Source of the DNA: a virus
IMG/VR virus record: IMGVR_UViG_3300030389_001563
Location: 1 to 49,161 of that record
Reading direction: 5' to 3' (one strand)
DNA length: 49,161 nucleotides
Shown: positions 70 to 35,626 of the stretch, in pieces
Layout of the letters: the number at the start of each line of letters is the position of its first letter
How positions within the stretch are numbered: the first letter of the stretch is position 1
Notes under the pieces: generated by a model
Database searches by the model: none
What the model saw: only the letters and a program-made list of their open reading frames with translations
What the model was told of the DNA's origin: nothing
Position numbers and translations under genes: made by a program

Positions 70-603
70 TTATCCTAGTAAGTAGCCCATAAATTGACTT
101 GAGCCTACGCCAGATTGTATTTGAAACGTACCACTGTTCTGAAACTCATCTCCAGTAAAAAGCTCAACATAATCATTTAAATTCAGACTTAATATTGTTG
201 AACCAGAAGCATAGGGGTGATCTGAACCAGAGCTACCATCAAAATCTGATCCTGCTCCTTGTCCTCCAAGCCTTGTATAAACTGATGAACCATTTTTATA
301 AATAGCAAAATTGAAAACCCTTAATTTACCAACAGACGCTAAACGTAAATTTGCATGAAAATAATATAAACCTGTAACTGGTGCAGTGAATCTACTGTTG
401 CTTGAGTCATAATGACTCCCTTGATTGATATCAACTTGACTAAAAACGATTTTTGTATTTGCTGTGCCATCTTGTTGATCTGAAGATGTTTTTCGAGCAA
501 GAAATACTGGTCTAGCAGGAGTTGTTACCCTTCCACTACTATCGATAGTCTGAGCCGTAGTGCCATTCGTATGCTTTATATTCTGTACTAAAATATTGCT
601 CAT
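70..603 (-). CDS. C1q-like short tail fibre protein
   Basis: 177 residues. The N-terminal 30 residues (MSNILVQNIKHTNGTT) belong to the adaptor shared by the other short fibres. Residues 33-177 look like a C1q/TNF-like jelly-roll: a strand rich in VFLARK, the FTAPVTGLYYFHANL motif typical of C1q-like domains, then YKNGS and a final SQFMGYLLG strand. Such domains form trimers and often bind receptors or polysaccharides at the tip of phage fibres. The stop overlaps nothing, and the start overlaps the stop of the upstream gene at 600-603. The C1q-like fold is a pattern call; the ligand is unknown. Confidence 0.75.
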   Translation of the reverse strand: MSNILVQNIKHTNGTTAQTIDSSGRVTTPARPVFLARKTSSDQQDGTANTKIVFSQVDINQGSHYDSSNSRFTAPVTGLYYFHANLRLASVGKLRVFNFAIYKNGSSVYTRLGGQGAGSDFDGSSGSDHPYASGSTILSLNLNDYVELFTGDEFQNSGTFQIQSGVGSSQFMGYLLG

Positions 604-4378: not shown

Positions 4379-5716
4379 CTAACTTATTCTCCAACTTGCC
4401 TGTGCCGATGATCTACTTAACTCCGTCAATCCCCATACTAAGGCATCTAATCTATCTGGTGAAATGTTTTTTTCACCTGTGTAAGAGATCATCTGATCTT
4501 CCAAGTTAGAAAATGAACCTACATGGTGCACTTTCTGTTGCTCATATAGTGCTGATATAGGCTCTGCCCTTACCAGTTTACCTCTAGTTGCGTGTACTGA
4601 TTTGTAAGGCACTTGCCCATCTACGCTTCTTATTAACCTCTCTACCAAGTCACCACCATTGTTTGTTTCTGCTACAATTCGGTCTGCTTTGTATAGATAA
4701 AAAAGGTCAACTGCCCTTCTTGCCCAAGCATCTGCACTCAATTTACCAGAACTATCGTCTAGCACATAGTAGCGATTATTGTTTGATTTGCCAACTACTA
4801 TTATTCCTGTTTCGTCACTTTGAGAATTTGCTGTCACAGCAGGGTCTATAGATACAACGACTCTTTGTAGCTCTGGCACTTCATCCTTCAGTATACGGCA
4901 ATCTTCTATCTGCTTATATGTCCATAAAGCACCCTCTAAATCAGTCAAGACCTCTGCATATAGCTCCTGTCTACCCATTGTGGTGTTCTCATAACGCTCT
5001 TTAAGGCTATCAAGGGCACTCTTTGCTAGGTTTTCTTCGTTTTCAAAGGTGCTACCTCTTGTTATGTAGATGTCATCACGCTTTAGCAGGTCTGTTATTA
5101 TCTTGATAGGTCTTGGTGTTGTTGTAATTACACACTGTGGGTTATCTCCCAGACGTAATCCAAACATCAACTGGTCAAAGGTTTCTGGATATTGCCAAGC
5201 TGCTAACTCATCACACCATGCTCTATGAAACTGTGAACCCCTTAATCTATTAGGTTCTGTAGCAGAAAAGCCTATAATTTTAGACCCATTATATAGATTT
5301 ATCTCTGAACGGCTAACAGAGTAACCTGTTTCCCTGTTGTTATCTCGAAAGACTTCATCTGGTAAAATACTCATAAACCCACTGACCCCACCGAAACAAA
5401 CCCTTCTAAGGTCTCCAAATGTCGGTGCTACCACTGCTGTGATTGTATTTGGGTTTTCAAAAGCAAATCTAATGCAATCTTCAGCACCAGTTCTAGTCTT
5501 ACCCCACCCTCTACCTGCTAATATAAGCCATATATTATAATCTTGGACTGGAGATAGTTGCTTCCACCGTGCACCACTTGTCCAATTAGTTATAGTTTGA
5601 AACGCTTTCTGTCTCGATACGTTCGGCTCTAACCGTGTCGAGAAGTCTGATAGCTTCTCTGAAAGTCTCGTCTGTGTCTGTATTAGTGTCAATGTTGATA
5701 TTCTCTGTAGATTCAC
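4379..5716 (-). CDS. terL: terminase large subunit
   Basis: 445 residues from the GTG at 5716. The protein is the ATP-driven DNA packaging motor and nuclease. Walker A is GRGWGKT (68-74), Walker B with catalytic acid is WCDE (167-170), and the RNase H-like nuclease shows D291 (SIDP), E350 (VAETN) and D421/D424 (DRLDALVWG). Length is usual for the family. The start is uncertain. From GTG 5716 the frame overlaps the small terminase gene by 131 bases, and the only later near-cognate start before the ATPase core is TTG 5692, which has an AGAGA 9 bases upstream. No ATG exists in the overlap. The stop abuts the long fibre gene. Confidence 0.93.
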   Translation of the reverse strand: MNLQRISTLTLIQTQTRLSEKLSDFSTRLEPNVSRQKAFQTITNWTSGARWKQLSPVQDYNIWLILAGRGWGKTRTGAEDCIRFAFENPNTITAVVAPTFGDLRRVCFGGVSGFMSILPDEVFRDNNRETGYSVSRSEINLYNGSKIIGFSATEPNRLRGSQFHRAWCDELAAWQYPETFDQLMFGLRLGDNPQCVITTTPRPIKIITDLLKRDDIYITRGSTFENEENLAKSALDSLKERYENTTMGRQELYAEVLTDLEGALWTYKQIEDCRILKDEVPELQRVVVSIDPAVTANSQSDETGIIVVGKSNNNRYYVLDDSSGKLSADAWARRAVDLFYLYKADRIVAETNNGGDLVERLIRSVDGQVPYKSVHATRGKLVRAEPISALYEQQKVHHVGSFSNLEDQMISYTGEKNISPDRLDALVWGLTELSRSSAQASWRIS

Positions 5717-6137
5717 CTAATGCCAGTTTAGCCATCTTTTGTATCTTTAAAGACGCTGATGCCAAACTATCAATCTGATATGGAGATAGAGTTTCCTTGT
5801 TGTGTATATTTGTAACTACCTTATCAAGCAGTTGCTTCGACACATTGATAATCCTATCGTCTATGGCAACACCCTCTAATGACAGCTTTTCACGCTTCTT
5901 TTTGCTGATTTCCTGCTGATATTTTACTATCTGCTCCTGTTGTTTGACCTTCCAGTCACCCTGTTTAGCCATTTTATACAGTGTATGCTCTGACATTTCG
6001 TACTTTTCTGCCAGTTGTGAGATCGTGGGAGACTGTAGATTTCCTTCATCATCAGTCCATCCGTTGATATAGTAATCAGCAATCTCTAGCTTTTGAGCCT
6101 GTGTGATTTTTTTATATTTTAAACCTTTGTTCGCCAT
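5586..6137 (-). CDS. terS: terminase small subunit
   Basis: 183 residues from ATG 6137; a GTG three codons upstream is an alternative. The N-terminal region carries a helix-turn-helix (SPTISQLAEKYEMSEHTLYKMAKQGDW, about 35-63). It is followed by a basic, coiled region (QQEQIVKYQQEISKKKREK) and a helical oligomerisation part. This is the layout of small terminases that recognise the packaging site and recruit the large subunit. The position directly before terL and the 131-base overlap with it support the call. Sequence similarity to named families is weak, so context carries much of the weight. Confidence 0.75.
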   Translation of the reverse strand: MANKGLKYKKITQAQKLEIADYYINGWTDDEGNLQSPTISQLAEKYEMSEHTLYKMAKQGDWKVKQQEQIVKYQQEISKKKREKLSLEGVAIDDRIINVSKQLLDKVVTNIHNKETLSPYQIDSLASASLKIQKMAKLALGESTENINIDTNTDTDETFREAIRLLDTVRAERIETESVSNYN

Positions 6138-6156
6138 TTTCCCCACATTTTTGCCA

Positions 6157-6187
6157 ATTATATAATATTAATCCATACCAATGTCGA
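6157..6187 (-). promoter_or_regulatory. putative promoter before the terminase genes
   Basis: On the minus strand TCGACA (6187-6182), a 17-base spacer and TATATA (6164-6159, within TATATAAT) form a sigma70-like promoter. It lies in the 63-base gap upstream of the small terminase. It could drive terS, terL and the fibre genes. This is from sequence pattern only. Confidence 0.45.
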
Positions 6188-6200
6188 TTAATTTTTTAAA

Positions 6201-6551
6201 TCATTCCTCTCTTGCATTCATATACTCAATAAACCACATCATAAACCAATTACAATCTACCTTGCTTAAGACATCACCACAACGGAACTCCATCCTTCCG
6301 TCATCATATTTAAAACGGAACTCATAACTCCATTCTGCATCTGATGTCTTGTAAAAGTATAAGTCACCGTATCCAAGATCGTGATACATAATTTTGTTGG
6401 TTCTATCGTTTATCGTTCTGTAATTCCAATGTACATGAGCAAAGAAAGCATCTTTAGGTAGTGGGTCATCAATATCATCAGAACCTCGTGAGTATTTGGG
6501 TTCATAAGATACTACAAATCTTCTATACATTTGGTCATGCTGTATTTCCAT
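6201..6551 (-). CDS. hypothetical protein
   Basis: 116 residues, acidic, rich in Tyr, Trp and Phe (AFFAHVHWNYR, WSYEFRFKYDD, CNWFMMWFIEYM). No signal peptide or clear domain was seen. It starts 3 bases after the stop of the glycosyltransferase gene, so it belongs to the same minus-strand transcription unit as replication and glycosylation genes. It could be an accessory of the glycosyltransferase, but only position suggests this. Confidence 0.55.
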   Translation of the reverse strand: MEIQHDQMYRRFVVSYEPKYSRGSDDIDDPLPKDAFFAHVHWNYRTINDRTNKIMYHDLGYGDLYFYKTSDAEWSYEFRFKYDDGRMEFRCGDVLSKVDCNWFMMWFIEYMNAREE

Positions 6552-6553
6552 CT

Positions 6554-7690
6554 TTATTCTCTTTCCCTCAATTCAAAGGTATATTCCTTGACTAGATACT
6601 CTGATTTCTTTCTAAGCTTATTTATTTTGAATCGCCTGTAGTCTACATGATGATGGTCTCTGTTAAACTTTGTAGTAAGGCTAGTTACATCTGGGTGCAT
6701 ATCTACTAACATCTTACTCTTATTATATGTTCCCTCTCCTGCATAGAACTCTTCAGTATTACCCCCTCTGACTGTCTGTGTAGCTCTCTTACTCTGTAGA
6801 AACATATTGAACTCTGCCGTACATAACCCATCTTTTAAAATACGCAGGGATAGATCGGTGTCCTCGTTATATCGCCCTCTCCACCTATATGGGATGTCAT
6901 TCTTAATAAGTAAGCAGGAATAGATACGAGTGTTAAACCGTACAGCAGGTCTACATTCATTTGCAGGACAGAAGTGACTGTATCCCAGACCAGACTGTGC
7001 AATGTTTGTGTATCGGTTTACAAAGTCTTCTACTATACGAAAGCAAGTACCGTCTGCTACAGGTATCTTACGATTATTGTTAAAACGCTCGAATGCTTCC
7101 AAGTTATCGTCCATTACCCAATGCCACTCATGTCCATTCGCAATAGAGTGTGCCCATGCAAAATTTCTCGCAGCCCCTGCTCCAGTTCTGTTGTCGGTAT
7201 CTTTCCAGAATACATCGTAATCATCCTTATATGATTGAGGTAGAATAAGTAACTGACTCTCGTCTACTAATGTTTTGTAATTACAATACTCATCCTTCTC
7301 TACAACCATATAGAACGGTACACCCATTCTCTTAAGTGCTTTTGATGTAGGATTACGCTCCCACCTGCCCTTACTGACAATATAGACTGGATATTTAGGA
7401 TTGACTGGCTCTGTACACACCCACTCTAGCTTGTAATCTTTTTCCTTAAGGGGATACCAAGCTTGCTTCTCTGTCTCTCTTTGCAATCCATCAAAGACCT
7501 TTTGCCCATCATACAGATGCTCTCTGACCTTTTCTTTGAATTTCTCATAGTCTTCTTTGTTTCTAAACTTGAAAGTAGCTCGTATCTCTGGCTCTGGCTG
7601 TACTTCATTATCGTAAGCAGGTAAGCCATCAAGCTCGTCTCTCCAGTCATTAAGTGATTCGTAAAAGCCAAATGTCTCTTGCTCCATCAT
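6554..7690 (-). CDS. TET-associated-type glycosyltransferase (GT-A fold)
   Basis: 378 residues from ATG 7690. The stop of the primase-helicase overlaps this start as ATGA, so translation is coupled; the GTG at 7699 is less likely. Residues about 100-330 show the pattern of the TET-associated glycosyltransferase (GREB1-related) family: YPVYIVSKGRWE, PFYMVVEKDEY, GAGAARNFAW, a metal-binding-like DD in HWVMDDN (about 194-195), RYNEDTDLSLRIL and a conserved QTVRGGNTEEFY. The first 90 residues form a separate small module (TFKFRNKEDYEKF ... WYPLKEK). In phages this family glycosylates oxidised pyrimidines made by TET/JBP enzymes. No such enzyme was recognised here, so the acceptor is unknown. Confidence 0.75.
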   Translation of the reverse strand: MMEQETFGFYESLNDWRDELDGLPAYDNEVQPEPEIRATFKFRNKEDYEKFKEKVREHLYDGQKVFDGLQRETEKQAWYPLKEKDYKLEWVCTEPVNPKYPVYIVSKGRWERNPTSKALKRMGVPFYMVVEKDEYCNYKTLVDESQLLILPQSYKDDYDVFWKDTDNRTGAGAARNFAWAHSIANGHEWHWVMDDNLEAFERFNNNRKIPVADGTCFRIVEDFVNRYTNIAQSGLGYSHFCPANECRPAVRFNTRIYSCLLIKNDIPYRWRGRYNEDTDLSLRILKDGLCTAEFNMFLQSKRATQTVRGGNTEEFYAGEGTYNKSKMLVDMHPDVTSLTTKFNRDHHHVDYRRFKINKLRKKSEYLVKEYTFELRERE

Positions 7691-9378
7691 TGATAGCACC
7701 GTGTTTTCATGTTGAATAAGAACTCAACCATGCCAATGTTACCATATACACCCTGCTCTCTTATTTTCCTAGTAATTATCTGTGTAAAGTTGTGCTCGAA
7801 GTCTCGATGAATTACTAATCCTACGTCTGCCATGTTTGCCCAGTGTGCAGAACCAGATACTTGATACAAGTCTGGTGGTGGTATTACCCCACTGTCGTTC
7901 CTATGTAATTTGTGAGGATGAGCTACCATCCAAACAACTATTTGGTGATTTCTAGCAAACTGCTGACATTTAGCAATGATATCTCTAATGTGCTCGTCTT
8001 CACGCTTGTTATAGTCACGCTCTGGACTGATTTGATTAAATGGGTCTATGACTAGACCGTTGATACCATATCGTATCTTTGCAACCTTTGCCTTCTGCAG
8101 GATATACTCGATAGTCGGTATCGCATCGGTGTTTTCAATGAAACGAAAGTGATGATCTATAAAGTCTATGCCACTGTTAAGCTCATCTTGGCTCATACGC
8201 TCATATTCGCCTATATCGAATGGCTTACGCACTCTTTTCTCCAGTAATCGCCTTAAATGGTTAGGTGTGGAGTGCTCTGGAGAGTAAACAGCAAACTTCC
8301 ATCCCAAATCTTCAGCTAGGTTCATCAATATCTGATCTAAGAAGTTTGACTTACCGTGATTAGGTATACCTGTGACCAAGTGGAATGTAGATGGCATTAT
8401 CTTGTAGATTTCATCAAGCTTTTTAAATCCTGTAGAATATGCCTTCTGTGTCTTACCTTCATATATGTCCTGTACCATATCGTGATATTCTCTTGGTCTA
8501 TGGACACCCTCTATTGGGAATGCTTCTGCATTCACCACAGCATCTATAACTGATTGCTTGCCCAATTTAACTAAAGCTTCGTTTGCATCTTTTATTATTG
8601 TGCCATCTTCGCTGTTTGGTAGTTTGACTAAACGGCATATATCTTTACCAAATCTATGCACTAACTCTAGCTGTAAAGCTTTCCCTGCTTCATCTTGGTC
8701 AGTAAATATAATGACTTCATCTGCATCAAATATCCATTCGCTCTGAGCAAACGCTGAGAAACGCTTATCATCATCTGCATATTTAGCTTGTTTCGGTGCA
8801 CCGTTAGGCAAAGACACACAATTGTTGATACTGCATTCTGCCAGTGCCAGAACGTCCATCTCTCCTTCGACAAAGATAACAGACTTTTTTACTTTCCAAC
8901 TTTCTTTGAGTCTGTCGATATTAAACAACGTCTGGAGTGCTCCTGCTTCCTGTGAAAACCTTTTATCCTTTGATCTGTGCTTAATATTTACGACTTTGCC
9001 ATCATAGTAATACGGAAAACAAAGATTATTGTTAAGTGTGTACAAACCAAACTTTTCTGCTGTGACCCTGCTTATACCTCTGTTTTGTAGCCACAAACCT
9101 GCATTTTCTGATAGATCAGTGCTGATAGGACTTGTTATGTCCTTTGGTGGTGCAGGTCTTTCGAATGCTGTGACGTTATTTCTGTCGTTGAATCCACCCT
9201 GCCATTCGCAATGATGACAAGTCCATGTGATACTATCTTTTGAAATGTTAACGCTCAACGGCATATCTGACTTCTTCTTTCGTAAGTGAGAGCATTTTGG
9301 ACACCGTTCTTTGTGTTGACCAAAACTGTAGTTACGAATGTGTAATCCTTCTTCTTTTGCTTTTTGTATAAAATCCAT
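7687..9378 (-). CDS. bifunctional primase-helicase (T7 gp4/Twinkle-like)
   Basis: 563 residues. The N-terminal zinc ribbon has CPKC at 26-29 and CHHC at 54-57. A TOPRIM primase domain follows, with EGEMD (E171) and DQDEAGK (D227, D229). The C-terminal RecA-like DnaB helicase has Walker A GIPNHGKS (337-344), Walker B LVIDP (D445) and a sensor in MVAHPHK (H487). It would unwind DNA and lay primers at the fork, working with host polymerase because no phage polymerase is visible. The start is one base from the stop of the initiator gene at 9380, which fits a replication operon. Confidence 0.93.
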   Translation of the reverse strand: MDFIQKAKEEGLHIRNYSFGQHKERCPKCSHLRKKKSDMPLSVNISKDSITWTCHHCEWQGGFNDRNNVTAFERPAPPKDITSPISTDLSENAGLWLQNRGISRVTAEKFGLYTLNNNLCFPYYYDGKVVNIKHRSKDKRFSQEAGALQTLFNIDRLKESWKVKKSVIFVEGEMDVLALAECSINNCVSLPNGAPKQAKYADDDKRFSAFAQSEWIFDADEVIIFTDQDEAGKALQLELVHRFGKDICRLVKLPNSEDGTIIKDANEALVKLGKQSVIDAVVNAEAFPIEGVHRPREYHDMVQDIYEGKTQKAYSTGFKKLDEIYKIMPSTFHLVTGIPNHGKSNFLDQILMNLAEDLGWKFAVYSPEHSTPNHLRRLLEKRVRKPFDIGEYERMSQDELNSGIDFIDHHFRFIENTDAIPTIEYILQKAKVAKIRYGINGLVIDPFNQISPERDYNKREDEHIRDIIAKCQQFARNHQIVVWMVAHPHKLHRNDSGVIPPPDLYQVSGSAHWANMADVGLVIHRDFEHNFTQIITRKIREQGVYGNIGMVEFLFNMKTRCYQ

Positions 9379-10248: not shown

Positions 10249-10375
10249 ATTTTTCTCCTTTCTAAATCATCACTACACTAATAAAGTTTTTTTGTAAACA
10301 ACAAAAAAAATATCTTTACAACTCTTTTCTATGTGGTACAACAACTGTTACGAAGAACCAGATAAGGATAACCAC
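10249..10375. promoter_or_regulatory. divergent control region with inverted repeat
   Basis: The gap between the HTH regulator and the early operon holds the inverted repeat TTGTAAA (10292-10298) and TTTACAA (10315-10321). The right arm contains TTTACA (10315-10320), then 16 bases and TACAAC (10337-10342). This run resembles the promoter at 14128 over the ACAACTCTTTT stretch. The left arm offers a minus-strand TTTACA. It may be the operator of the adjacent regulator; the promoters themselves could also explain the symmetry. Confidence 0.5.
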
Positions 10376-11539
10376 ATGGACGATTTATACAATGAGATAC
10401 TAGCAGGTGTCGCAAATCCAAACAGAGCTTTTGTTAGATACGATAACAATAAATTTAACAAGCTTGTGAGGAGAAATTTTCTTAGAGATATGTTAGGTGC
10501 ACAGAGGTTTTACATAAGTGATTCTCTCTTACAAAGTGCCATTGTTGCAAGCTACTCACATCCTAAAGCTATCTTAGGAATGTTAAGACAAGCCAAACCA
10601 CCATTTAACAATATGTGGATTGAATGGGATGAAAGAAAGAGAATGCACTTGACCAGAGAGTATTTGATAGGTCAAGGAATGCAAATGGAAGGTATTGACA
10701 GAAGTGAACAAGCTCAAAAAGTTGGATATAGAATTCATCGAACACAAGAAAGAGATAAAATGTTTCATTGGAAAGAAAAATCATCTGACTGGGAGAAACC
10801 TATATATCCAGAAGATTCTTTTTGTTATCAAGGTTTCATAAAAATGGGTAAAGTTTCCAAGCATGGATTAGCAAGTAAAATTCTTTTTGCTCCCCTTAGT
10901 TTAACAATGTCCAATGAGCAAGAAATGGAGTGGATGAAGCGTTTCCCTGTCAAACATTATAATAAGGCTTTCATGGAAACAATATATCCGATTATGGGAT
11001 ACACCTATACTCAAATGCACCCAAATAATACTTACCTAAGTAATTGTGTAAGGCAATTGGCTACAGGAGTGCACGAACTTCACACATTTAATTATGGCAT
11101 GGAAAGAGTTGCAAAATGGAATCAAGAAGGTGATATAACACCTTTTGAAAAATGGATGGACACAACAGTAAGCACTAGTGAAGGTGATATTAGATTTATC
11201 ATATCTGTTTTAGCTTTACTGAACTATCAGCATCATGTGTATGAAAGAGCAGAGATGGCATCTATCCCAAGAAGAATTAGATATGGTGGCATCGTGCCCA
11301 GAAACGAGCTTCGTGTTTTAGAGATAGATTTACCTAAACCATTTGGTGTCAAGAAATACGAAAAGATATTTAAGGGATTTGGCTCTCCGAAACGACAGCA
11401 TACACGCAGAGGTCACTGGCACACTTACCATTACAAGAATGGTGAGAAGAGACAGAAGTGGGTAGAAGAGCAAACTGTCGGCAATCCAGAGCTAGGAAAG
11501 ATTGAACATGATTACATATTAAGGAGACGAAATGGATAA
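10376..11539 (+). CDS. unknown protein, first gene of early operon
   Basis: 387 residues from ATG 10376, which has AAGG 8 bases upstream. An earlier in-frame ATG at 10331 lies inside the promoter spacer and has no ribosome site. No catalytic motif was recognised. The C-terminal part has a compact basic module, PKRQHTRRGHWHTY, then KWVEEQTVGNPELG and a final HDYILRRR. The RRGHW...W.....G pattern recurs at the ends of unrelated phage and plasmid proteins. The stop overlaps the nuclease gene by 8 bases. As the first early gene it may act on the host, but nothing in the sequence shows how. Confidence 0.65.
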   Translation: MDDLYNEILAGVANPNRAFVRYDNNKFNKLVRRNFLRDMLGAQRFYISDSLLQSAIVASYSHPKAILGMLRQAKPPFNNMWIEWDERKRMHLTREYLIGQGMQMEGIDRSEQAQKVGYRIHRTQERDKMFHWKEKSSDWEKPIYPEDSFCYQGFIKMGKVSKHGLASKILFAPLSLTMSNEQEMEWMKRFPVKHYNKAFMETIYPIMGYTYTQMHPNNTYLSNCVRQLATGVHELHTFNYGMERVAKWNQEGDITPFEKWMDTTVSTSEGDIRFIISVLALLNYQHHVYERAEMASIPRRIRYGGIVPRNELRVLEIDLPKPFGVKKYEKIFKGFGSPKRQHTRRGHWHTYHYKNGEKRQKWVEEQTVGNPELGKIEHDYILRRRNG

Positions 11540-15200: not shown

Positions 15201-15414
15201 GGACTTCATAAGGGTGAGTGTCAAAGATTTACAGTCAATGGCATTCACCCCTAAAGAACTCAAAACCATTATTGGTCTGACAGAATTTTACATCACAGTC
15301 TCTTCGGCAACAACTGACATGACACAGGAAGAGATACGGTGGATACTCTCGATAAAGAAAAAGTGTGATAAACTATTAACAAAGAATGGAGACAAAGATG
15401 GATATGCCACATGA
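15190..15414 (+). CDS. small unknown protein
   Basis: 74 residues from GTG 15190, with GAGGA 6 bases upstream, overlapping the membrane-protein gene by 11 bases. It is helical (SVKDLQSMAFTPKELKTIIGLTEFYI, MTQEEIRWILSIKKKCDKLL). No family was recognised. Confidence 0.55.
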   Translation: MATEDFIRVSVKDLQSMAFTPKELKTIIGLTEFYITVSSATTDMTQEEIRWILSIKKKCDKLLTKNGDKDGYAT

Positions 15415-15916
15415 AACAAATGTCTACCAGTGCATCAATGGAATAGTCTCAGTGCCCAAAGGAGAGGTGCTAAAGGGCAGTTACTGTGGTGGACTCATAA
15501 TCCGATACAACAGACAGAAGATGAGGGTTGACGGAGCTACCTGTCAGCAGAGATACCTATCTTTAGCAACCAGTAATAATGCCAAGCCAAAAATAAATAA
15601 ATTGTTTCTGGAGAAACCTATCTGGAACGGTGGAGAAATGCTTATTGGTATAGCAACAAAAAGATTTGCCAAAGGAGATGTTAGAGTCTTCTCTAAGTAC
15701 AGAAATAAGTCTGGTAGACCCCTCTGGGATGGTGGACTGTATTGCACTAAGGAATTTGCCAAAGAGTTCCCTGTGAAGCATTATAACAACACAGCCAAGC
15801 CTTTGACGGTCTACATGATACCCTTAGATGATTTACTGGCATTTAATGAGAGCTACAAAGATATGAGCAGACCAGTGAATTATGTAGACTTCGACTGGAC
15901 ACCAAACGAACTCTAA
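15398..15916 (+). CDS. unknown protein
   Basis: 172 residues from ATG 15398, which has GGAGA 5 bases upstream; an in-frame ATG at 15386 is less well placed. The protein looks mostly beta (GIVSVPKGEVLKGSYCGGLIIRYNRQKMRV, GGEMLIGIATKRFAKGDVRVFSKYRN, LTVYMIPLDDLLAF). No motif was recognised. It ends the cluster before promoter-leader copy 2. Confidence 0.6.
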   Translation: MDMPHETNVYQCINGIVSVPKGEVLKGSYCGGLIIRYNRQKMRVDGATCQQRYLSLATSNNAKPKINKLFLEKPIWNGGEMLIGIATKRFAKGDVRVFSKYRNKSGRPLWDGGLYCTKEFAKEFPVKHYNNTAKPLTVYMIPLDDLLAFNESYKDMSRPVNYVDFDWTPNEL

Positions 15917-18541: not shown

Positions 18542-19099
18542 TTACACCCAATCTAATGTTGCTTCACCTTCATAGTTTACGTCAAAAATAAACCATGCAA
18601 AAGCCATTAAGCCATTTGACTTACTATCCGTTGATTTTTTCTTAAAGGGCAGTCTACGGCTAAATATGAGCACCTTCTGGAGCTTTTTAGTGCTATATAA
18701 CAGTTCTTTTCTCTTTACACCCTCCAAAAACGATATTTTAGACAGCATAGCCACCTTATCTGTAGCTAAATCTAGTGCATGGAGTATAAACTCTGTTGCC
18801 AGATTGAACGGTGGATTTGTCACAATGTTAGGCACTCTTCTTCTGTCCAAAAGAAAATCTACCCCAGACTCTCCATAACCCCTGTCCACTAAATCTGTAC
18901 TTACAACCTTATGACCGTTCATTTCTAACACTTGAGACATCGCACCGTCACCACAAGCACACTCCCATATTGTACCTACAAACTTCTGTTTTTTAAGCAA
19001 AGCATCCGTAGCTATACTGGGTGTAGGATAAAAATCTAATTTGTTTCTATCATCTCTAGAATTATGACCAACGTAAGATAGTGCTGAGTTGAGTTTCAT
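18542..19099 (-). CDS. DNA methyltransferase, amino-type (NPPF)
   Basis: 185 residues. Motif I is IWECACGDGAMS (about 44-55) and motif IV is NPPF (95-98), the order of adenine or N4-cytosine methyltransferases. DFYPTPSIATDALLKK at the N-terminus is typical of phage Dam-like proteins that occur without a partner restriction enzyme. It probably protects phage DNA from host restriction. The target recognition part is short, so specificity cannot be judged. The C5-cytosine PC motif is absent. Confidence 0.8.
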   Translation of the reverse strand: MKLNSALSYVGHNSRDDRNKLDFYPTPSIATDALLKKQKFVGTIWECACGDGAMSQVLEMNGHKVVSTDLVDRGYGESGVDFLLDRRRVPNIVTNPPFNLATEFILHALDLATDKVAMLSKISFLEGVKRKELLYSTKKLQKVLIFSRRLPFKKKSTDSKSNGLMAFAWFIFDVNYEGEATLDWV

Positions 19100-35176: not shown

Positions 35177-35326
35177 GCTTGTAAATACAAAAAAAAATCA
35201 GCCTAAAACCCCAGGAACTACAAAAAAAAGTAAAAAAACATTAAAAAAGTGTTTGACTACTACAATAAAGTGTTTATATTAATAGATATGAAAACGAATC
35301 ACTTTAACACAATGGGAGAAAAAAAG
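35177..35326 (+). promoter_or_regulatory. repeated promoter-leader, copy 3, with A-tracts
   Basis: Poly-A tracts (35190-35240) precede AAAAAAGTGTTTGAC (35243-35257). The -35 is TTGACT (35253-35258), with a 16-base spacer and -10 TATATT (35275-35280). The leader contains GAAAACGAATCACTTTAACA, then AATGGGAG (35311-35318), 8 bases before the ATG. The gap also separates this island from the minus-strand protease gene. Confidence 0.85.
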
Positions 35327-35626
35327 ATGATTAACTTTGTAAACGGACATGAATACACAGGAATTAACGTAACTACACTTCTTGACCTTGACTATAACGA
35401 AGGAGACGAGTTTTGCACATTTAGACAAGCTCTTGATTTCTACAAGATCAAAGGCAAGCAGATGAAAGGTACAAAGACTGTAGCAAGCTTAGTGTTTATG
35501 TCAGAGGACGAAGAAGAAGATAAAGAGACCAAAGAGGTAAGCAAAAAGAAAAAGAAGAAGTACTTCAGAGTTTTCGAGAGAACTTCTTTAGAAGCAAAAT
35601 TAGCAGAGAATGGAGTGAGGGTTTAA
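35327..35626 (+). CDS. ArdC N-domain-like protein, first gene of leader cassette 3
   Basis: 99 residues from ATG 35327, placed by AATGGGAG; the longer frame from 35249 runs through the promoter. The text GDEFCTFRQALDFYKIKGKQMKGTKTVASLVFM ... KKYFRVFERTSLEA resembles the N-terminal ssDNA-binding domain of ArdC antirestriction proteins (F.QA...G..V.KG ... V.F ... FRVFN). An acidic-then-basic insert (DEEEDKETKEVSKKKKKK) separates the two parts. The metallopeptidase half of full ArdC is absent. Antirestriction or DNA binding is an inference. Confidence 0.55.
   Translation: MINFVNGHEYTGINVTTLLDLDYNEGDEFCTFRQALDFYKIKGKQMKGTKTVASLVFMSEDEEEDKETKEVSKKKKKKYFRVFERTSLEAKLAENGVRV

Follow-up and report, generated by a model that had tools for sequence, protein, structure and literature searches.

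In characterised phages, DNA glycosylation proceeds in two steps: a hydroxylated pyrimidine is made and is then glycosylated. A stretch of viral DNA of 49,161 nucleotides (IMG/VR record IMGVR_UViG_3300030389_001563; the whole stretch is called the window below) encodes a TET-associated-type glycosyltransferase (TAGT) without a visible enzyme for the first step, which raises the question of what this protein modifies and where its acceptor comes from. The features concerned are:

4379 to 5716, minus strand: large terminase (Terminase_6N/6C)
5586 to 6146, minus strand: small-terminase-like HTH gene, one border of the modification slot (in 17 relative loci, a homologue immediately precedes TerL)
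6147 to 7686, no strand assigned: modification slot, occupied by other DNA-modification cassettes in sister phages (comparison of relative loci)
6201 to 6551, minus strand: small accessory gene, 116 aa (relatives L234-L237, 63-65%, in contigs without TAGT)
6554 to 7690, minus strand: TAGT-family glycosyltransferase with fused N-terminal partner domain, 378 aa (PF20691, PHROG 842)
6761 to 7393, minus strand: TAGT catalytic core (PF20691 profile 1-205; invariant residues over 40 sequences)
6860 to 6865, minus strand: ED motif, residues 276-277, probable catalytic base region (invariant in branch alignments)
7103 to 7111, minus strand: DDN motif, residues 194-196, probable metal/nucleotide-sugar site (invariant in branch alignments)
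7403 to 7690, minus strand: partner domain "ND", residues 1-96, motif W.GMPEF ... F.F....D...F ... K....WYP
7687 to 9378, minus strand: primase-helicase (Toprim, DnaB_C), the other slot border, with an ATGA overlap with the TAGT gene

The original prediction placed a TAGT-type glycosyltransferase at 6554-7690, and both the family and the coordinates were borne out. The reading frame for the 378 aa starts with the ATG at 7690, which overlaps the stop codon of the primase-helicase gene as an ATGA junction, and its own stop codon is separated from the gene at 6201-6551 by 2 nt. PF20691 (TAGT) matched residues 100-310 in the Pfam scan with 146 bits (E = 1.7e-42), far above the curated cut-off of 27.5 bits. 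The match covered the whole profile. The protein was not placed in another glycosyltransferase family, an outcome that had been considered. PHROG 842, annotated as "beta-glucosyl-HMC-alpha-glucosyltransferase", matched at 3e-47. No other gene in the window matched PF20691. Comparison with the 99% identical contig L004 gave dN 0.0044 and dS 0.258 (dN/dS 0.017), indicating strong purifying selection. We found no near DNA relatives among named phages, no plasmid relatives, and no solved structure that matched by sequence.

The AlphaFold2 model of the protein (mean pLDDT 84, pTM 0.84) has a predicted GT-A fold, with solved GT-A structures at Z 12-14.7. Its best structural matches were processive GT2 synthases, PcManGT and GalNAc-Ts: Chlorella virus hyaluronan synthase ranked first (Z 14.7, rmsd 3.9, 233 aligned residues) and PcManGT second (Z 14.2, rmsd 3.7, 234 aligned residues), with GalNAc-Ts just below. 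Among viral models (BFVD), the top named matches were TAGT proteins, and a Klebsiella phage Ggt appeared lower down. The DDN motif aligns with the DDD of T6 Ggt and of a TET-linked TAGT, and both of these also contain the ED motif. With its invariant DDN, the modelled protein thus combines the GT-A fold and the acidic metal motif of a TAGT. A predicted GT-A likeness of this kind leaves the acceptor unspecified.

The statement that no gene in the window carries a dioxygenase, thymidylate-synthase-like or kinase signature withstood closer inspection. Six-frame searches of the window with the Tet_JBP (PF12851), Thymidylat_synt (PF00303) and C5 DNA_methylase profiles gave nothing at E <= 10, so that a TET-like gene was sought and not found. 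Pfam scans of the 68 window proteins identified no dioxygenase, no nucleotide kinase, no second glycosyltransferase, and no alpha- or beta-glucosyltransferase family for a first transfer. The profiles were effective in controls: Tet_JBP recovered the TET of sister phage L247 (4.9e-25) and that of contig L283 (8.9e-24), and Thymidylat_synt recovered T6 gp42 at 56 bits. On these searches we rejected the idea that the window conceals a TET or hydroxymethylase gene. Since the first-step enzymes were searched for and not found, the window TAGT falls outside the TET-TAGT and T-even hmC systems as they are defined. The methyltransferase at 18542-19099 had been described as being of the amino type. 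It has no Pfam match, but its match to PHROG 799 ("DNA methyltransferase", 6.8e-58) and its NPPF motif make this description reasonable.

A TET or hydroxymethylase gene could also lie beyond the ends of the window, as the contig has no terminal repeat and the record does not state its completeness. However, terminase, portal, capsid, tail, replication and lysis genes are all present, sister contigs measure 42-53 kb, and two Vibrio isolates of ~48 kb show the same absence. Moreover, the TET of L247 sits in the modification slot, which is intact in the window. We therefore regard an incomplete window as a most improbable explanation.

Three genes had been proposed for a structure-based dioxygenase search, and none of them gained support as a candidate. 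Motif searches found no HxD/E at all in 6201-6551 and 15386-15916. The gene at 10331-11539 (plus strand) has a single HMD at residue 15, which is not conserved and falls outside the region conserved among 12 homologues. The fold search returned only a weak match to the anti-CRISPR protein AcrVA2 and no dioxygenase, and although absence from a match list is no proof, we rejected the protein as a 2OG-Fe(II) dioxygenase on this result and on the lack of a conserved HxD/E...H motif. The AcrVA2 match of the model (pLDDT 70) had Z 4.8 and rmsd 6.6 over 193 residues, with the next match at Z 2.4. The protein is a conserved phage protein with 36 viral relatives and the motifs NMWIEW and RRGHW, and on the strength of the model it is possibly AcrVA2-like. 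This lead is worth following because a phage AcrVA2 homologue has already been reported (PMC10846135). The gene at 6201-6551 was also rejected as a dedicated TAGT partner, given its relatives in contigs without TAGT. Elsewhere in the window, 35249-35626 (plus strand) encodes an ArdC N-terminal domain (PF08401, 2.1e-7), possibly of an anti-restriction protein, and 70-603 (minus strand), near the tail genes, encodes a C1q-like domain (PF00386, 3.5e-13).

The family had been expected to accompany TET as a rule, and this failed for the branch to which the window TAGT belongs. Whole-record Tet_JBP searches detected TET/JBP in none of 52 phage and viral records with a window-branch TAGT (42 viral contigs and 10 named phages, T6 included), and in only one of 26 bacterial genomes that carry a window-type TAGT, represented by contig L283 of a Winogradskyella MAG. 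The characterised T6 Ggt likewise adjoins gene 42 (dCMP hydroxymethylase), not TET. In L283, genes for ParB_N, TET and a 256-aa PF20691 protein (1660-2427, 53 bits) form one co-directional cassette, and the opposite strand carries a separate window-type TAGT with 59% identity to that of the window. The two types share DD(N/D) and ED but differ in length, partner domain and the C-terminal HH.VDY. Their presence side by side, with these differences, indicates that the TAGT linked to TET belongs to another branch than the window type.

Thymidylate-synthase homologues were found in none of the 42 viral contigs and in neither of the Vibrio phages 1.124.O and 1.076.O. These two cultured phages of ~48 kb carry window-type TAGTs and have no TET either; in 1.076.O, the TAGT gene lies among head genes, not replication genes. 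All eight larger phages searched have thymidylate-synthase homologues, most of which resemble ordinary thymidylate synthase. As PHROG cannot tell dCMP hydroxymethylase from thymidylate synthase, the large T4-like carriers were judged by Table 4 of PMC2993671, in which Aeh1 and 65 are not among the phages with gene 42. The TAGT carrier Tenacibaculum phage PTm1 encodes a weak dCMP-hydroxymethylase-like thymidylate synthase homologue (L099 175-849). Many of the contigs are fragments, and the absence of TET and thymidylate synthase can therefore be relied on most in the window, in both Vibrio phages and in contigs of at least 40 kb.

These data also bear on the idea that the host supplies the acceptor base. 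The window contains no recognised DNA polymerase gene, which makes replication by host machinery probable, and TAGT-bearing genomes span several phyla. Yet 25 of the 26 TAGT-bearing bacterial genomes lack a TET match, and we know of no hydroxylated DNA base that is common to hosts in Bacteroidota, Proteobacteria and other groups. A host-made acceptor thus appears very unlikely.

The feature that accompanies window-type TAGTs is the partner domain. After dereplication at 85% identity, 94 TAGT groups remained. All 91 groups away from contig edges had this domain of ~75 aa (consensus W.GMPEF...VRF....D...F....Q.iT.KTKSIWyP), and the other three were cut at a contig edge. The domain was fused to the TAGT in 30 groups, including that of the window. 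In 31 groups it was encoded by a small gene of its own, in many cases one that overlapped the start of the TAGT. It formed the C-terminal end of a ParB_N protein immediately upstream of the TAGT in 24 groups and was part of another protein of 180-300 aa in 6. Nowhere in the sequences searched did it occur apart from a TAGT. PHROG has no match to the domain, and Pfam gave nothing above cut-off for the N-terminal part of the window protein. Pfam matched ParB_N in L241 at 1.6e-6 and in L286 below cut-off, and a ParB_N-only model built without the partner domain strongly found others (e.g., L072 at 1e-37 and L312 at 2e-36). The window copy has no ParB_N. Judged by their sequences, the window-type TAGTs form a distinct subfamily, described here, that is marked by a fused or adjacent partner domain.

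Whole-content clustering of 32 TAGT carrier contigs (15 kb to 178 kb) identified terminase as the next most common family, in 9 of 32. As no family besides TAGT was present in more than nine, we rejected a universal co-inherited acceptor enzyme. Because these contigs otherwise have almost nothing in common, partner domain and TAGT together constitute the travelling unit. Several loci (L009-L012, L062, L078 and L089) contain tandem TAGTs, several with a partner domain each, which suggests sequential sugar additions. A class I methyltransferase of 276-286 aa adjoins the TAGT in four groups (L022, L045, L053 and L080).

In order to compare gene neighbourhoods, relatives of the window phage were picked by primase-helicase and by terminase, and the stretch between both was examined. 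Both borders were present in 10 relative contigs, and nine of these had a ParB_N and/or DNA-modification-type gene between them. Whereas the slot of the window holds the partner-domain-TAGT fusion and the 116-aa gene, that of L247 contains ParB_N, TET_JBP (4.9e-25), two unknowns and a weak P-loop kinase match. In L241 and L252 the slot holds a ParB_N-partner-domain protein, a TAGT, a sugar-nucleotide epimerase/dehydratase and a 127-aa protein; the epimerase/dehydratase gene directly follows the TAGT gene (5248-6201 in L241) and may make the donor sugar there. L257, with an 80% identical terminase, has MT-A70, radical SAM, a weak acetyltransferase-like protein and a ParB_N/N6_N4 methyltransferase, and the ParB_N protein of L277 belongs to the same cluster as this methyltransferase fusion. 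L260 combines ParB_N with a Mom-family protein (7184-7849; PF25680, 4.6e-47). ParB_N occurs with PAPS-reductase/DUF3440 proteins in L242 and, by homology, in L262 and L276. The slot of L261 is empty but for the small-terminase-like gene. Only one border is present in L243, where ParB_N and then a GT4-type glycosyltransferase (together 5891-7829) follow the primase-helicase; L251 is arranged likewise. Here, too, a glycosyltransferase cassette, of a second type, shows no gene for an acceptor enzyme. The ParB_N and PAPS-reductase/DUF3440 pairing is found in L268 and L273 as well as in L262 and L276, and in L242 (7686-11491) it is joined by AdoMet decarboxylase-like and methyltransferase genes; such cassettes possibly represent a modification of an unrecognised kind. 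ParB_N proteins are known to accompany phage DNA methyltransferases and CmoX carboxymethylation loci (PMC12783734).

DNA had been named as the likely target because the gene is coupled to the primase-helicase. The exchange of the TAGT with TET, Mom and ParB-methyltransferases in one slot supports this on firmer grounds and is our main reason for considering DNA the likely target. A protein, RNA or glycan as target would fit the protein and polysaccharide glycosyltransferases among the structural neighbours, the wide spread over unrelated phages, and the position of the TAGT among head genes in L003. However, such a target would account poorly for the interchange of the cassette with TET, Mom and DNA methyltransferases in the slot and for the fusion of the partner domain to ParB_N, and we regard it as unlikely.

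If DNA is the target, the acceptor may be a hydroxylated or hydroxymethylated base made by an unrecognised phage enzyme that differs among phages, with the TAGT acting as in T6. This reading refines the DNA-target explanation and is no alternative to it. Characterised DNA glycosylation systems begin with a hydroxylated base, according to the available text of PMC13216743 and PMC13390438, many window genes have no family assignment, and PTm1 has its weak dCMP-hydroxymethylase-like gene. Conversely, the scarcity of shared families in the carrier contigs, the lack of a dioxygenase motif or fold in the named window candidates, and the lack of thymidylate-synthase homologues in the 42 viral contigs and the two small Vibrio phages all argue against it. 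On balance, we hold this reading tentatively, as a substantial possibility.

The movement of the TAGT with only its partner domain, between phages that have almost no other genes in common, points in a different direction, namely that no separate acceptor maker is needed. Stand-alone Mom or methyltransferase cassettes behave likewise in the same slot, and the unrelated GT4 of L243 has only ParB_N alongside. A widespread mobile system of one or two genes (TAGT with the partner domain or with a ParB_N-partner-domain protein) would then glycosylate phage DNA on a canonical base or another group already in ordinary DNA, such as an exocyclic amine, and the one-gene cassette would be complete. Against this stand the window-type TAGT beside a TET cassette in L283 and the room that negative gene searches leave for unknown enzymes. 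Since we know of no precedent for a sugar on an unmodified DNA base, we consider a self-sufficient enzyme doubtful, despite the lone movement of the unit and the GT4-only cassette that favour it.

Irrespective of the acceptor, we think it likely that the product of the window gene is a phage glycosyltransferase that modifies DNA and belongs to a distinct TAGT subfamily, and that the gene is carried as a self-contained mobile cassette in the modification-exchange slot of its lineage. The gene is real and selected, and its product is probably a DNA-directed glycosyltransferase that behaves as a DNA hypermodification enzyme. The protein would probably take its sugar from a nucleotide sugar of the host and attach it to phage DNA after replication, protecting that DNA against restriction or against other defences that target DNA. 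Recruiting the enzyme to DNA, or positioning it there, is probably the task of the N-terminal partner domain, a role that would fall in relatives to a separate subunit or to a domain fused behind ParB_N. This chemistry is incomplete, as no acceptor-making enzyme was found. Our literature search found no assay of any TAGT from this branch, and a profile-profile comparison gave no significant match to the single T6 Ggt sequence, so that transfer of function from T6 rests on the common Pfam and PHROG models. The position of the gene among head genes in Vibrio phage 1.076.O also speaks against this reading.

The branch comprises at least 90 distinct groups in phages and prophage-like loci of many phyla, in most of which both known enzymes for the first step are missing. 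Either an enzyme for that step awaits discovery, or the branch uses a different chemistry. The acceptor question can be tested directly, since the configuration recurs in two cultured Vibrio phages. The partner domain can serve as a marker for finding the system, and the exchange slot is a good hunting ground for further modification enzymes.

Among known systems, the closest comparison is with T2/T6 Ggt; the T6 enzyme adds a second glucose to alpha-glucosyl-hmC (PMC13216743 and PMC13390438). Ggt shares with the window TAGT the PF20691 and PHROG 842 models, the GT-A fold and the DDD/DDN and ED motifs (PMC13216743). T6 Ggt differs in its length of 261 aa, in lacking the partner domain and the C-terminal HH.VDY, and in its place beside gene 42; BLASTP gave no match between the two proteins. 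T-even glucosylation of hmC needs a dCMP hydroxymethylase and a first alpha- or beta-glucosyltransferase, neither of which was found in the window by PF00303 and Pfam searches. The TET and TAGT system needs TET/JBP in the same genome, which the PF12851 search did not find in the window at E <= 10, and its TAGT in L283 is a PF20691 member like that of the window but is co-directional with TET, shorter and without partner domain. Solitary phage TAGTs resemble the window in having no alpha- or beta-glucosyltransferase alongside; a 2026 survey counted them in 288 of 753 phage genomes, with undefined function, and its available text is silent on the partner domain, on a link to ParB_N, on the slot and on any test for TET or hydroxymethylase (PMC13216743). 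ParB_N-coupled loci, namely ParB-methyltransferase fusions and CmoX (PMC12783734), are like the TAGT cassettes in their ParB_N neighbour or fusion and in being small and interchangeable. Unlike in those loci, ParB_N is missing from the window copy, and the effector is a glycosyltransferase.
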